A stretch of DNA of 64,000 bases from NCBI RefSeq assembly GCF_000737325.1, contig NZ_CP011125.1:2108001-2172000 (forward strand), written 5' to 3'. Below the pieces are notes generated by a model. That model ran no database searches. It had not been told where the DNA came from and was given only the letters and a program-made list of their open reading frames with translations. Source of the DNA: Sandaracinus amylolyticus (GTDB lineage: Bacteria; Myxococcota_A; Polyangia; Polyangiales; Sandaracinaceae). Below, piece after piece: positions 48,576 to 54,572 of this stretch. Each line of letters starts with the position of its first letter. The stretch's first letter is position 1. The translations under genes and the position numbers were made by a program.

Positions 48576-49169
48576 TCACAAGACGCCGCGCGCCCGGAGC
48601 GCGGCGCGCAATCCGTCCGCCCCGTCGAACACGATCGTGTCCATCCCGAGGGCGCGCGCCGCGTCGCAGTTGCTCGCGCGATCGTCGACGAAGAGCGCTT
48701 CGCCGGGCGTGAGGCCCAGCGAGCGGCACGGCCCGAGGTACGCCTCGGGATCCGGCTTGCGCACGCCGAGCTCGTACGAGACGAACGCCGAGTCGAGGCG
48801 CGCCGCGAGCCCGCACTGCTCGTCGATCCACCGGTACCACGGCGGATAGTTGGAGAGCGCGTGCAGCGTCGGGCGCGGCGAGCGCGCGCGGAGCTCGTCG
48901 AGCAGCTCGCGCATGCCGGGCAACCACGCGTACGCGGCGCGCACGCACGCGCGGAACGCGTCGCGATCCCACTCGCGATCCCCCATGAAGATCGCGAGGA
49001 ACGTCGGCTCGTCGATGTGTCCGAGCTCGAAGTCGACCCACGCGGTCGGGTGCTTCGTCGCGATCAGCTCGCGCTTCGTGACGCCGAAGAACGCGGGCAT
49101 CTCCTCGTGGAAGGGATCGCGCACGAGGGTGTCCATCACGTCGAAGAGGATCGCGCGGGGAGGGCTCAT
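48576..49169 (-). CDS. HAD superfamily hydrolase
   Basis: About 197 residues with all four HAD motifs: Phe-Asp-Val-Met-Asp-Thr-Leu (I, nucleophile Asp; the usual Phe-Asp-X-Asp-Gly is Phe-Asp-Val-Met-Asp here), Ala-Leu-Ser-Asn-Tyr (II), Gly-Val-Arg-Lys-Pro-Asp (III), Phe-Val-Asp-Asp (IV). Subfamily IA. Substrate unknown. ATGA overlap with the reductase gene stop shows coupling. Confidence 0.8.
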   Translation of the reverse strand: MSPPRAILFDVMDTLVRDPFHEEMPAFFGVTKRELIATKHPTAWVDFELGHIDEPTFLAIFMGDREWDRDAFRACVRAAYAWLPGMRELLDELRARSPRPTLHALSNYPPWYRWIDEQCGLAARLDSAFVSYELGVRKPDPEAYLGPCRSLGLTPGEALFVDDRASNCDAARALGMDTIVFDGADGLRAALRARGVL

Positions 49170-50161
49170 CGCGGCGACGATCGTGAGGCGTCTCCCGTCG
49201 CGAGTCGATGGTCGAGGGATGCGCGCAGGGCGTGGATCGGCGCGGGGTCGATCCCGCGCGAGCGCGCGTCGTCCTCCGCCTCCGCGAGCAGCACGCGCGT
49301 CTGCGTGCCGACCTTCGAGAAGTGCACCTCGAGGTAGCGCTCGAGATCGAACGGCGCGATCGCGGGGACGATCGCGACCAGCGGCGCGAGCAGCGGAGCG
49401 CGGAGCGGCGACGCGATCCACGGCGGCCGCGACCCCGTCGCGAGCGCGAGCAGCGCGCGCGATCCTGCGAGCGCGCGGGAGAGCCCGGGCCCGCGACGCA
49501 GCGCGCGCAGGGACCAACCGCTCGCCTCGAGCGCGGCGACGAGCGGCAGGATGATCGCCGACGACTTCGCGAGCTCGAGCGACGCGTCGCGGACCACGCG
49601 CGCAGGACAACCGCCCGCGCGGAGCGCGCGCGCGACCTCGTCCGCGCGCGCGTGCTCGTCCGACGAGAACATCGTCGCCTGCAGCGGCGGGAGCCAGTAC
49701 GCGGTCGCGTCGTGCGCCCCGACCTCGCGCCGATCGCGCGATCCGTCGAGCGGGCTCGCCCACGCGACCACGCCGATCGCGCCCGACACCAGGTGCCGCG
49801 CCCGACCGAGCCGCTCGCGCACGTGCGCGCCGGGCTGGAGCGACACCAGCGTCGCATCGCCGACCGCGTCGATCAGCGCGTCGACCCACGGCTCGTCGAG
49901 CGCGTTCGTCGGCAGCCCGAGCCACACCTGATCGAAGCGCCGCGTCGCGAGCTCGCGCACGTCGGTGAGCACGTCGGCCGGCACGAAGCGCGCGTCGCGC
50001 CGCGCGCCGATCATCGGCACGCGACGCACGCTCACGCCTCCGCGCAGCTCGTCGACGTGGCGCGGCCGCACCAGCACCGAGACGCGCGCGCCACCGGCCG
50101 CGAGGCAGTGCCCGTAGACGCGTCCGATCGCGCCCGCGCCGACGATCAGGATCTCGCTCAA
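49166..50161 (-). CDS. 2-dehydropantoate 2-reductase-like protein (KPR family)
   Basis: About 331 residues. Begins Leu-Ser-Glu-Ile-Leu-Ile-Val-Gly-Ala-Gly-Ala-Ile-Gly, the NADPH-binding Rossmann motif, and has the ketopantoate reductase C-terminal helical domain. A Lys in Leu-Ala-Lys-Ser-Ser-Ala-Ile could be the catalytic Lys, but the Asn that usually follows is not seen, so it may not act on ketopantoate. Start is TTG at 50161, in the TTGA overlap with the methyltransferase stop; no nearer ATG keeps the nucleotide-binding motif. Confidence 0.65.
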   Translation of the reverse strand: MSEILIVGAGAIGRVYGHCLAAGGARVSVLVRPRHVDELRGGVSVRRVPMIGARRDARFVPADVLTDVRELATRRFDQVWLGLPTNALDEPWVDALIDAVGDATLVSLQPGAHVRERLGRARHLVSGAIGVVAWASPLDGSRDRREVGAHDATAYWLPPLQATMFSSDEHARADEVARALRAGGCPARVVRDASLELAKSSAIILPLVAALEASGWSLRALRRGPGLSRALAGSRALLALATGSRPPWIASPLRAPLLAPLVAIVPAIAPFDLERYLEVHFSKVGTQTRVLLAEAEDDARSRGIDPAPIHALRASLDHRLATGDASRSSPR

Positions 50162-51045
50162 CGCGCCTTCTTCTTCGCGGCCTTCTGCGCGTCGGGGCTG
50201 CCCGGCAGCGGCTCGCTCTTCTTCGCGACGAGGTACGCGTTCCACCCCGGATCGTTGGTCGTCTTCGTCACGCGATGGAACGTGCCGGTGCCCTGACCCT
50301 CGTCGTCCTCGCCCTCCCAGTACGCGTCGACCGCGACGAAGCCCGCCTCGAGCAGCAGCTCGCGCAGCTCGGCGAGCTGCCACAGGCGCCAGTCGTACGT
50401 GAACGCGCGCTCGAGCTTCGAGCCGTCCTTGAACTCGTAGGTGATGTGACAGACGAAGTGATTCGAGATCGGGTCGTACTCCGCCTGCTCCCACACGTAC
50501 GTGAATCCGTCGCAGAGACGGCGCTCCGTGAGCACCTGTTGCGACTCCCACCCTCCGATCGCGTCGAGCACGAAGAGCCCGTCGTCGGTGAGCGACTTCC
50601 GCGCTGCCTCGAAATAGCGGCGCAGCAGCTCGCGCGTGTGGAAGATCTGATAGCTGTAGTTGTACGCGCCGATCACCTCGGCCTTGCGGCGCGTCGGGAC
50701 CATCACGTCCTGCTCGAGCAGCGTCACGCGCTTCGCTGCGTCGCCGATCGGCGCGAGGTTGTGCGCGATGCCCCAGTCGAGCGTCGGACGATCGATGTCC
50801 AGGCCGAGCGCGGTGCGCGTGGGATCGCTCTTCACCCACTTCGAGCAGAGCAGCGCCGTGCCGCAGAAGTCCTCGCGGAGGTGCAGAGGCTTGCGCCCGG
50901 TGTGCCGCTTGAACGCTAGGTTCAGGAACCGGATCTCGTACTCCGGCGCTTGCACGCTGCGCTGATAGAGATCGTGCTTGTCGGCAGTGCGCGCATCGAG
51001 GCGCGCGCTCGCGCCCGACTTCTTCTTCTGGCGGGGACGGCTCAT
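50158..51045 (-). CDS. class I SAM-dependent methyltransferase
   Basis: About 295 residues. Lysine-rich ends; core Leu-Arg-Glu-Asp-Phe-Cys-Gly-Thr-Ala and Gly-Leu-Asp-Ile-Asp-Arg-Pro-Thr as SAM-pocket strands, then Val-Ile-Gly-Ala-Tyr-Asn-Tyr-Ser-Tyr-Gln and Leu-Asp-Ala-Ile-Gly-Gly. The C-terminal Ala-Phe-Thr-Tyr-Asp-Trp-Arg-Leu-Trp resembles methyltransferases that act on small molecules or macromolecules, not identified. First gene of a three-gene coupled run (methyltransferase, reductase, HAD). Confidence 0.78.
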   Translation of the reverse strand: MSRPRQKKKSGASARLDARTADKHDLYQRSVQAPEYEIRFLNLAFKRHTGRKPLHLREDFCGTALLCSKWVKSDPTRTALGLDIDRPTLDWGIAHNLAPIGDAAKRVTLLEQDVMVPTRRKAEVIGAYNYSYQIFHTRELLRRYFEAARKSLTDDGLFVLDAIGGWESQQVLTERRLCDGFTYVWEQAEYDPISNHFVCHITYEFKDGSKLERAFTYDWRLWQLAELRELLLEAGFVAVDAYWEGEDDEGQGTGTFHRVTKTTNDPGWNAYLVAKKSEPLPGSPDAQKAAKKKAR

Positions 51046-51236
51046 CGGCGCGCCTTCTACTCCGGCGCGGGCGTGACGAAAAGCCCGTCGTGCAGCAACC
51101 CGTCGCGAAATGTCCCGCGCTCGCGCGAAGGTTGCGACGCCGGTCGCTGCGCGTACTTCGCGTCCCGCTGGCGCGCGGATCGCATGAAGGGCGCCATCCT
51201 GCACGCGCCATCGCGCGCCTTGCTCGGAGGAAGGCT

Positions 51237-51605
51237 ATGACCGACACGACGACGAAGAAGAGCCTGGATCGTCTCGCGGAGCGCATGGAGCGCATCGGCG
51301 AGGAGCTGCGCGTCCGCGTCCACCTCGCCGGGCTCGACGCGAAGGACTCGTGGGATCGCACGAACCTCGATCGCATCGGGGACGAGCTCGCCGAGATCCG
51401 CGACGAGCTCCGCGTGCAGCTCCACCTCGCGAGCCTCGACGCGAAGGACGCGTGGAACCGCATCGAGAAGAAGATCGATCTCCTCGGCAGCACCCCCGGC
51501 GTGCACGGCGACGAGATCGTGCGCGACGTCGCGAGCAACCTCGCGGAGGTCGCGCGCTCGTTCCGCGAGCAGCTCTCGTCGCGCGACAGCGCCGAGCGCC
51601 GGTGA
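51237..51605 (+). CDS. small charged helical protein with two internal repeats
   Basis: 122 residues, no recognised domain. Two units of roughly 30 residues follow each other, each carrying (Glu/Asp)-Glu-Leu-Arg-Val-X-(Val/Leu)-His-Leu-Ala-X-Leu-Asp-Ala-Lys-Asp-X-Trp. Mostly heptad-like helices, so a coiled coil is likely. GGAGGAAGG sits at a good distance from the ATG. The stop overlaps the next start (GTG at 51602). Confidence 0.7.
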   Translation: MTDTTTKKSLDRLAERMERIGEELRVRVHLAGLDAKDSWDRTNLDRIGDELAEIRDELRVQLHLASLDAKDAWNRIEKKIDLLGSTPGVHGDEIVRDVASNLAEVARSFREQLSSRDSAERR

Positions 51606-52639
51606 GCGAAGGGCGAACGACCGTTCGCCTCCCATCGGGCGAGCACGCGATCTGGGCGTACGCCGCGGGCTATTTCCTCGCGTACGTGCCCTACGGGCTC
51701 GTGACGAAGGCGCTCTCGGAGGGGCGCCTGCCCGGCGCGCCCGAGCGCGTCGCCGGGCTCGCGCTGCTCCCGATCTCGACCGCGGTGTCGGCGATCGGGA
51801 TGCTCGTCTTCCTCGGCGCGAGCGGGCTCTGGAAGCTCGCGCCGAGCGTGCGCGTCGCCGGCATCACGATCCCGGTGCCTCGCCGCGCGACGCTGCTCTC
51901 GGGCGTGTGCACCGCCGCGATCGTGCTGACGACGACGCTCGCCTACACGTTCGAGGGCACGAGCATCGTCGCGATGATGCTGATGATGCGCGGCGGCGTG
52001 CTCGTGATCGCGCCGATCGTCGATCTCGTCAGCCGCCGCCGCGTCCGCTGGTACTCGTGGATCGGTCTCGGGCTGAGCGCGCTCGCGCTCGGCGACGCGC
52101 TCCTCGGCGCGCTCGACGCGCGCATCGCGCCGCCCGCGCTGCTCGACGTCGCGGTCTATCTCGGCGCGTACTTCGTCCGGCTGCGCCTGATGAGCCGCCT
52201 CGCGAAGAGCGAGCCCGACGCGAGCCATCGCTATTTCGTCGAGGAGCAGCTCGTCGCGACGCCGATCGCGCTCGCCGTGATCGTCGCCGTCGCGCTGCTC
52301 GATCGTGGTGCGGTCGGCGCGACGCTCGCCCACGGTCTCGTCGACCTGCCGCGGAGCGGCGCGCTCGGGTGGGTCGTGCTGATCGGCCTCTGCTCGCAGG
52401 CGACCGGGATCTTCGGCGCGCTCGTGCTGCTCGACGCGCGCGAGAACACGTTCAGCGTTCCGGTGAACCGCGCCTCGAGCATCCTCGCGGGCGTGCTCGC
52501 GACCGCGCTCCTCGCGTGGCTGCTCGGCGGTGCGACGCCCGATCGCGGCGAGCTGATCGGCGCCGCGCTGGTGGTGCTCGCGATCGTCGTGCTCGCGCTC
52601 GGGCCGCGGATCGATCAGCGCCGCGCCGCGAGCACGTGA
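51602..52639 (+). CDS. 10-TM drug/metabolite-transporter-like membrane protein
   Basis: About 345 residues, roughly ten hydrophobic helices, resembling EamA/DMT-type transporters in length and layout, but I cannot assign motifs with confidence. Phe-Glu-Gly-Thr-Ser-Ile-Val-Ala-Met-Met-Leu-Met-Met-Arg-Gly and Asn-Thr-Phe-Ser-Val-Pro-Val-Asn-Arg are recognisable loops. GTG start overlaps the preceding gene by four bases, so the coiled-coil protein and this one are made together. Tail overlaps the convergent sigma-54 regulator gene by 25 bases. Confidence 0.65.
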   Translation: MSEGRTTVRLPSGEHAIWAYAAGYFLAYVPYGLVTKALSEGRLPGAPERVAGLALLPISTAVSAIGMLVFLGASGLWKLAPSVRVAGITIPVPRRATLLSGVCTAAIVLTTTLAYTFEGTSIVAMMLMMRGGVLVIAPIVDLVSRRRVRWYSWIGLGLSALALGDALLGALDARIAPPALLDVAVYLGAYFVRLRLMSRLAKSEPDASHRYFVEEQLVATPIALAVIVAVALLDRGAVGATLAHGLVDLPRSGALGWVVLIGLCSQATGIFGALVLLDARENTFSVPVNRASSILAGVLATALLAWLLGGATPDRGELIGAALVVLAIVVLALGPRIDQRRAAST

Positions 52640-54096
52640 CGCTTCACGGTGCGTCGATCGAGCCCCACGCGCTCCGCGACCGCCTCGTACGTGCCGAGCC
52701 GCGCGTGCAGCGCGGCGCAGTAGCGCGCGATCAGCTCCTCGGCTCTCCATCCGCCGCCGCCCGACGCCGCGAGCAGCGCATCCTCCGCGTCCTCGGCGAC
52801 CGCGCTGCGCGCGAGCTCGGGCACGTAGCGCCGCGTCAGCAGCACGCGCCGCACGCACTGCGCGAGCTCGCGCACGTTTCCCGGCCAGCGATACGCCTCG
52901 CCCACGTCGCGCGCGATCGCCTCGCGCACCAGCGCGATCAGATCGCGCGGCTGCTCACCGAGCATCTGCTCGAGGATCGCGGCGATCAGCACGTCGAGCT
53001 CGCCGGGATCTTCGTCGAGGCGCTGCCGCAGCGTCGGCATCTCGATCACGTCGGCGGAGAGTCGATACCAGAGATCGTCGCGGAACGTGCCATCGCGCCG
53101 CAGCGCCGCGATGGTGCGGTTCGTCGCGGCGATCACACGTCCTTCGAAGCGCCGCGGCGCGCGCGAGCCGACCGGTCGGAACGTCCGCTCCTGCAGCACG
53201 TGGAGCAGCTTCACCTGCACGGCTTGCGAGACCTCGCCGATCTCGTCGAGGAAGATCGCGCCGTGTGCCTTCGCGCGCGCGAACACACCGGCGTGCTCCG
53301 CGATCGCGCCGGTGAACGCGCCCTTCTCGTGCCCGAAGAGCTCGCTCTCGACCAGCGTCTCGGGGAACTCCGCGAGGTTGATCGCGAGGAACGCGTCGAC
53401 GAACGACGACGCGAAGCGCTCGCGCTTGGCGTCGTACGGGATGAACCCGGAGCGACCGATCGCCGCGGCCGCGGTGCCCTTGCCGGTGCCGGTCTCGCCC
53501 GCGAGGAACGTGGAGAAGTCCTCCATGCGCCGCCAGAGCAAGCGCGCGTAGAGTCGAAGATCCGCGGTGAAGAGGTCGTTCCACAGCGACTGGCGCAGGC
53601 GCCACATCGAGGGGCTCGTGCCGGGCAGCGACGTCTCGACGAAGAAGAACGCGCGCCGCATCTGCCAGAAGATCGCGAGGTAGTGCAGCGCCTGCGGCTC
53701 GTCGATGCCGCGCGACGCGAGCTCCGCGAGCGCGTCGCGCGCGAACCCCACGGTCCCGCGCTCGCCCGCGATCTCGCGCCGGATGCGCTCGTCGAGCGCG
53801 TCGGCGATGCGATGGAACACCGCGAAGAGGAGCCCTGCTTCGACGAGATCGCGATCCTCGCCAGTGAACCGGCGCAGATCGAGAGGACGCCCGCGCGCGA
53901 TGCCCTCGAGGCGCGCGTCGAGCTTCGCGAGCATGCGGCCGAGCACCTCGGCGCGCGGAACGTCGGCGTCCGCGCCGACGACCGCGCGATCGATCTCGAG
54001 GCGCTCCTCGCCGAACGGGTTCGCGGCGATCGCTGCGGCGACCCGCGCGAGGAAGTCGCGTTCGCGCGGGGCGAGGCGCTCGATGGGACTTGCCAT
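52615..54096 (-). CDS. sigma-54 interacting transcriptional activator (bEBP)
   Basis: About 493 residues. An unrecognised N-terminal domain (about 1-195) contains no response-regulator receiver. AAA+ domain: Walker A Gly-Glu-Thr-Gly-Thr-Gly-Lys-Gly (about 200-207), Gly-Ala-Phe-Thr-Gly-Ala (about 259-264, contacts sigma-54), Walker B Ile-Phe-Leu-Asp-Glu-Ile-Gly-Glu, and an arginine-containing Arg-Asp-Asp-Leu-Trp-Tyr-Arg-Leu. C-terminal HTH Gly-Thr-Tyr-Glu-Ala-Val-Ala-Glu-Arg-Val-Gly-Leu-Asp-Arg-Arg-Thr-Val. ATG at 54096 chosen. Divergent from a YiaA/B gene with a -24/-12-like promoter; likely its target. Confidence 0.88.
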   Translation of the reverse strand: MASPIERLAPRERDFLARVAAAIAANPFGEERLEIDRAVVGADADVPRAEVLGRMLAKLDARLEGIARGRPLDLRRFTGEDRDLVEAGLLFAVFHRIADALDERIRREIAGERGTVGFARDALAELASRGIDEPQALHYLAIFWQMRRAFFFVETSLPGTSPSMWRLRQSLWNDLFTADLRLYARLLWRRMEDFSTFLAGETGTGKGTAAAAIGRSGFIPYDAKRERFASSFVDAFLAINLAEFPETLVESELFGHEKGAFTGAIAEHAGVFARAKAHGAIFLDEIGEVSQAVQVKLLHVLQERTFRPVGSRAPRRFEGRVIAATNRTIAALRRDGTFRDDLWYRLSADVIEMPTLRQRLDEDPGELDVLIAAILEQMLGEQPRDLIALVREAIARDVGEAYRWPGNVRELAQCVRRVLLTRRYVPELARSAVAEDAEDALLAASGGGGWRAEELIARYCAALHARLGTYEAVAERVGLDRRTVKRHVLAARR

Positions 54097-54104
54097 TCGC
54101 CGCG

Positions 54105-54131
54105 TGTACACGGGATGTACATCCGTGTGCA
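54105..54131. promoter_or_regulatory. imperfect dyad, candidate activator binding site
   Basis: The perfect core GGATGTACATCC is flanked by TGTACACG and CGTGTGCA arms that pair with one bulged base, giving a 27-bp dyad. It lies 9 bases upstream of the activator start and about 104 bases upstream of the projected transcription start of the YiaA/B gene, the usual distance for a bEBP binding site. It could also autoregulate the activator. Confidence 0.5.
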
Positions 54132-54195
54132 AGGGATGCGCGCGCCGAATGTCATGGAATCGTGGCGATTTCGGTTTCCGCGTGCATTCCGTGCG

Positions 54196-54211
54196 CGGCA
54201 CGTCCGCTGCT
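54196..54211 (+). promoter_or_regulatory. candidate sigma-54 promoter for the YiaA/B gene
   Basis: CGGCACGTCCGCTGCT carries GG (54197-54198), ten bases, then GC (54209-54210), matching TGGCACG-N4-TTGCW at 10 of 12 positions. Start of transcription would be near 54222, just ahead of GGAAGGAG (54228) and the ATG at 54246. Next to a divergent sigma-54 activator gene, which raises its credibility above the similar element at 1305. Confidence 0.6.
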
Positions 54212-54245
54212 GACGGCTCGGCTCGAGGGAAGGAGACCTCGAGAG

Positions 54246-54572
54246 ATGACCCACGACGTTCCGCGCGACACCGCTGCTTGGCGCTTCCAGGTCTGGGCCT
54301 CGTTCGTGCTCGCGTTCGGCACGACGCTGATCGGCATCGCGTACCTCCCGATCGATCCGTGGATGAAGGGCTATCTCGCGATGGGCGTGCTCTTCACCAC
54401 GGGCTCCGCGTTCACGCTGAGCAAGACGATCCGCGACGAGCACGAGGCGCAGCGCTTCCTCAGCCGCATCAGCGAGGCGAAGGCGGAGCGCATCCTCCGC
54501 GAGTACGAGCTGAACGATGGGCGCGCGCAGGCGAGCGCACAGGGCCAAGGGGCCGCGCGCGTCGCGTCGTGA
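54246..54572 (+). CDS. YiaA/YiaB-type two-helix inner membrane protein
   Basis: 108 residues. Two membrane helices (about 15-35 and 42-62) with Pro-Ile-Asp-Pro-Trp-Met-Lys-Gly-Tyr-Leu-Ala-Met-Gly and Ser-Ala-Phe-Thr-Leu-Ser-Lys-Thr-Ile-Arg-Asp-Glu-His-Glu match the YiaAB domain. A charged C-terminal helix follows. Function of YiaA/B is poorly known; a link with envelope stress is possible but inferred. Sigma-54-like promoter and activator gene upstream. Confidence 0.8.
   Translation: MTHDVPRDTAAWRFQVWASFVLAFGTTLIGIAYLPIDPWMKGYLAMGVLFTTGSAFTLSKTIRDEHEAQRFLSRISEAKAERILREYELNDGRAQASAQGQGAARVAS

Follow-up and report, generated by a model that had tools for sequence, protein, structure and literature searches.

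The closest described system is the phage-shock circuit of Escherichia coli, in which the sigma-54 activator PspF is divergent from the membrane-protective gene pspA. The locus analysed here resembles it. A sigma-54 activator (bEBP) is divergent from a predicted sigma-54 target, the YiaAB gene, with a regulatory region in common; the predicted enhancer lies beside the activator's own start, and PspA is the target in some genomes. PspF consists of an AAA+ domain and a helix-turn-helix (HTH) only and has no N-terminal regulatory domain (PMC11237479). Unlike PspF, the activator family of this locus has a conserved helical N-terminal domain of 197 residues, its targets include YiaAB, DUF2339 and LplT-Aas, and its enhancer is an 11-bp TGTACA array. 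The activator scores 155 bits against the PspF equivalog model TIGR02974 (cut-off 443.55), which is below most of the genome's 69 matches. Judged by sequence, the circuit is PspF-like by architecture and the activator is neither a PspF ortholog nor a PspF by descent.

Activators of the NorR, RtcR and PrpR type share with this one an N-terminal domain, an AAA+ domain, a C-terminal HTH (putative in this activator) and a divergent target, but its N-terminal domain belongs to no Pfam family. In Desulfovibrio vulgaris the orphan bEBPs DVU0151 and DVUA0100 are also single-component proteins, and their long N-terminal regions have no known role; DVU0151 is divergent from a sigma-54 operon, and the two proteins, which bear GAFSEA and GVATGV, are assigned to transport and type III secretion (PMC4641369). 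The family described here bears GAFTGA; DVU0151 was set aside as a relative because of its GAFSEA motif.

The window, that is the whole stretch of 64,000 nucleotides that was analysed, comes from a genome consisting of a single contig of 10,327,335 bases. The divergent pair and its intergenic elements are listed in Table 1. Very long open frames antisense to real genes at 49166-52858 are not genes themselves; they result from the high GC content.

Table 1. Features of the activator/YiaAB locus, in window coordinates.
Feature	Position	Strand	Basis
Sigma-54 activator (bEBP), 493 aa	52615-54096	-	ORF and translation; PF00158, 150.7 bits; full-length orthologs in 10 other genomes, 51-96%
Activator N-terminal domain, residues 1-197, presumed sensor	53506-54096	-	Alignments of 17 and 67 relatives; AlphaFold2 model
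Activator AAA+ sigma-54 interaction domain and lid, residues 192-421	52834-53523	-	PF00158; invariant columns
GAFTGA of activator, residues 259-264	53305-53322	-	Invariant columns
Activator putative C-terminal helix-turn-helix, residues 458-486	52639-52725	-	Weak PF13384 match; conserved motif
Predicted enhancer array, three repeats at 11-bp steps	54105-54132	-	Direct reading; periodicity; register
Array units TTGCAC, TGTACA and TGTACA	54132-54127, 54121-54116 and 54110-54105	-	
Presumed -35 position of the activator's own promoter (TTGCAC here)	54127-54132	-	For the window, inferred from TTGACA of distant orthologs
-24/-12 sigma-54 promoter CGGCACGTCCGCTGCT, 10/12	54196-54211	+	Consensus score; shuffles; conservation with G002
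Ribosome binding site AAGGAGA	54230-54236	+	Direct reading
YiaA/B two-helix membrane protein, 108 aa	54246-54572	+	ORF; PF05360

The preliminary description of this DNA had read an activator with GAFTGA and a divergent YiaA/B gene, and both readings hold. The reading frame of the activator carries conserved GETGTGK (Walker A) and GAFTGA motifs in its AAA+ domain, as expected of a bEBP, while the product of the YiaAB gene matches PF05360 with 80.2 bits (cut-off 26.6), the sole match to that family in the genome. The AAA_lid_14 match of the activator falls just below the Pfam cut-off. At the C-terminus PF13384 reaches only 14.9 bits, which is under the cut-off, and a G-Y...DRRT motif is found in all orthologs. 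RpoN is encoded in the same genome (PF04552, 222.9 bits), and the sigma-54 activator model has 69 matches there, in about 67 proteins.

The N-terminal region of about 195 residues, which had earlier been noted but not assigned, is real. It has no Pfam family and no sequence match to a solved structure; Pfam matches among 67 members with this domain were scattered and inconsistent and were dismissed, and the NCBIfam matches of the activator cover the AAA+ and C-terminal parts alone, far below the cut-offs. Invariant residues in the alignments of 17 and 67 relatives are N26, P27, F28, Q145, R148, G159 and W172, with N26, P27, F28, Q145, R148 and W172 common to the 67. The structure prediction proposed in the preliminary description gave an all-helical AlphaFold2 model (pLDDT 87.2, pTM 0.84), and the all-helical fold is confidently predicted. 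Fold searches with the model gave no convincing match to a solved structure: Foldseek returned nothing at E under 0.001, and the best VIA Z, 4.7, may reflect just a common helical arrangement. The failed match does not in itself make the predicted fold a new one.

The intergenic element had been described as a 27-bp dyad about 104 bases upstream of the projected YiaAB transcription start (approximately 54222, from the -24/-12 site). The element and the distance are correct, but the element is palindromic only if a one-base bulge is allowed and is better read, on the activator strand, as TTGCAC-N5-TGTACA-N5-TGTACA, three TGTACA-like direct repeats at exact 11-bp steps. Tandem copies resemble one dyad because each unit is itself palindromic; a simple dyad as operator was dropped, since the 11-bp periodicity favours direct repeats. 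Pairs of TGTACA spaced by 11 bp occur in 49 of 96 activator upstream regions, compared with at most 8 at any spacing other than 11 or 22 and 5 in the reversed control. No repeats were found at the start of three orthologs of the same family (L035-L037).

The array of the window stands at -36/-25/-14 from the activator ATG, the commonest register among distant orthologs, in which the starts were picked mechanically, with errors that would blur a register and not create it. TTGACA is present in 25 of 80 distant upstream regions (1-4 for control words), most often exactly 36 bases before the ATG, and is followed by TGTACA-like units at 11-bp steps; the window holds the same register with TTGCAC at -36. 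In sequence the arrangement resembles an array into which a -35 element is woven, ahead of a leaderless or nearly leaderless message, and the array probably serves the activator's own promoter too. In Thermodesulfobacteriota and other groups (L148-L227), TTGACA stands exactly 36 bases ahead of the ATG of many activator genes, suggesting leaderless messages.

The element CGGCACG-TCCG-CTGCT facing YiaAB agrees with 10 of 12 consensus positions, as first reported. When the 300 bp ahead of YiaAB are dinucleotide-shuffled, such a site arises with p of about 0.01, and five with GG and GC kept are present across the whole 64-kb window. Between the window's genome and G002, a genome of the same genus, identity is 94% in the promoter, 81% in the repeats and 77% in the spacer. 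Sites of 10/12 or better face the divergent gene at 24 of 78 activator loci and face the activator itself at 0 of 78, where shuffles gave 0.5 and 0.7; these shuffle figures are not probabilities over independent events because the loci are related. The majority of the distant activator loci have no -24/-12 site at 10/12 or better.

Activator orthologs at 51-55% identity are found throughout the family and order, but G002 and a Labilithrix MAG are the only relatives in which YiaAB adjoins the activator. The dyad and the -24/-12 element, whose conservation the preliminary description had proposed as a check, are not both lost in relatives. Both repeats and promoter are kept in G002, and the Labilithrix pair is likewise divergent with a 10/12 promoter and weak repeats (8/12, p 0.07). 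Among eight unlinked YiaAB genes, repeats beyond shuffles (p<0.05) are kept in seven and a 10-11/12 promoter in three (L053, L054 and L057); four others have 9/12, and one copy (L059) has neither repeats nor promoter. Linkage is thus separated from regulation, as YiaAB adjoins the activator in two relatives only, yet unlinked copies keep the elements. In G042 the LplT-Aas and YiaAB genes diverge from an intergenic region that holds one array, and each of the two genes has an 11/12 promoter (TGGCCCGGGCCTTGCT and TGGCACGGACGCTGCA). In the literature searched, no assigned role for YiaA/B proteins and no link of YiaAB with PspA or membrane stress was found.

The resemblance to pspF/pspA, already pointed out in the preliminary description, is borne out by one other clade of the same order. 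In five genomes of this clade the gene divergent from the activator encodes PspA/IM30; four of the proteins score 37-43 bits (cut-off 33.9), and the fifth, at 23 bits, falls under the cut-off. These loci have 11/12 sites such as TGGCACG-GCCC-CTGCT and the same repeats, in arrays such as TGTACATATGGTGTACAATCTATGTACATG that run into the activator start codon. In the phylogenetic tree the PspA-linked activators form a clade of their own with strong support; the tree gives no settled relation between the Labilithrix and window activators. PspA as a general target was rejected, being divergent in this clade only: a profile search found none in 80 distant activator loci, 27 other PspA loci have no repeats, and the other PspA genes of those genomes have neither array nor promoter.

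A scan of the window's genome for TGTRCAN5TGTRCA with up to one mismatch gave 23 matches, the same number as the reversed control, so single matches carry no meaning. Multi-copy arrays are found in the window and at genome positions 3467910, 7099191-7099228 and 9899514-9899552. Downstream of the array at 3467910 come TGGCACGACCGCTGCT and the gene of a DUF2339 membrane protein (201.9 bits in Pfam); the array at 7099191-7099228 is followed by TGGCACGTGGCTCGCT and the gene of a membrane protein that has no Pfam family. Both promoters are 11/12 sites at 40-100 bp from the arrays and the sole ones in the 101 kb examined, a background that contains the array loci themselves. The circuit is therefore not self-contained, contrary to what had tentatively been suggested. 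The array at 9899514-9899552 is flanked by the gene of a small CxxC protein and a VOC-like gene (named by eye), and no recognisable -24/-12 site accompanies it. Neither array nor promoter was seen at this genome's LplT homolog.

DUF2339 genes with 10-11/12 promoters are also found in four other genomes, with repeats clear in G002 and G008 and degenerate in G007 and G025. Arrays also precede fatty-acid hydroxylase genes, in G042 with an 11/12 promoter and in G012 without a good one. Array-linked targets overall include PspA, the LplT-Aas phospholipid acyltransferase, DUF2339, fatty-acid hydroxylase and VIT-vWA proteins. Two candidates in G016 (L138, C83:17497; L147, C478:5364) are not arrays; they are perfect TGTACAGCWGCTGTACA palindromes near unrelated genes, probably sites of another regulator. 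A further match (L146) lies inside coding DNA and is not an array.

The N-terminal domain was scanned against one genome per species with an alignment of 7 rows, the 17-row alignment being too diverse. The scan gave 173 relatives, of which 80 were kept, in Thermodesulfobacteriota, Planctomycetota, Kiritimatiellae, Acidobacteriota, Nitrospirota and other groups. Sequence motifs identify 22 VIT-vWA proteins and 12 LplT/Aas among the divergent genes at 78 loci, one of each checked against NCBIfam; the majority of the distant targets were read as the nearest divergent frame. The VIT-vWA proteins (L166, L153, L160 and others), the commonest divergent partners, are related to TIGR03788, a marine sortase-target family, well under its cut-off. 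The plasmid collection contained no activator ortholog at E 1e-60.

From what the sequences show, namely the genes, their conserved repeats and promoters and the targets that recur, we infer a one-component sigma-54 enhancer-binding protein that would bind the TGTACA repeats and, with the DNA between looped out, touch sigma-54 polymerase at the -24/-12 site and switch on YiaAB. Binding to the array would also repress the activator gene through overlap with its own promoter, an autoregulation as in PspF that is expected because the repeats abut the activator's own gene start. In trans the activator would control a small membrane-gene regulon. In this genome its members would be DUF2339 and another membrane protein; relatives would add PspA, LplT-Aas, fatty-acid hydroxylase and VIT-vWA proteins. 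Membrane damage or an altered lipid state probably acts through the helical N-terminal domain as a gate on the ATPase, and the target list points to envelope stress as the likely inducer. This PspF-like model is the most parsimonious, and we regard it as probable as a whole.

A real regulon that answers a metabolic signal, lipid supply or phospholipid turnover, and not envelope damage is a distinctly less probable but serious possibility. It is suggested by the LplT-Aas acyltransferase and fatty-acid hydroxylase among the targets, but in five genomes the activator diverges from PspA as its target, and none of YiaAB, DUF2339 and the VIT-vWA proteins is a lipid enzyme. It is unlikely that the repeats are the operator of another regulator or only the autoregulatory site of the activator, with YiaAB constitutive or under another sigma-54 activator. 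The repeats do lie nearest to the start of the activator gene, and with about 67 sigma-54 activators encoded in the genome a different one could act at the -24/-12 site; yet several genomes have these repeats ahead of unlinked targets that possess sigma-54 promoters, and the repeats accompany this activator family across phyla. Chance matches of promoter and dyad in a GC-rich intergenic region, conceivable from the shuffle result for a 10/12 site, are very improbable, since the elements are conserved in relatives, the period is exactly 11 bp and the promoter sites are biased in orientation.

On the PspF-like model, a little-described activator family appears, from sequence comparison, to switch on membrane-maintenance genes through a conserved DNA repeat. 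Only tentatively can it be proposed that the helical N-terminal domain senses membrane or lipid state directly, as a sensor of a new kind, and that the family, in Myxococcota, Thermodesulfobacteriota, Planctomycetota, Acidobacteriota and other phyla, is a widespread PspF alternative with a membrane-repair regulon under its control. YiaAB and DUF2339, which share their type of enhancer and sigma-54 promoter with PspA and LplT-Aas, obtain a testable role in membrane maintenance. An activator family of many phyla gains a predicted binding site, regulon and sensor domain, and a PspF-type circuit can, it appears, rest on an activator other than PspF.
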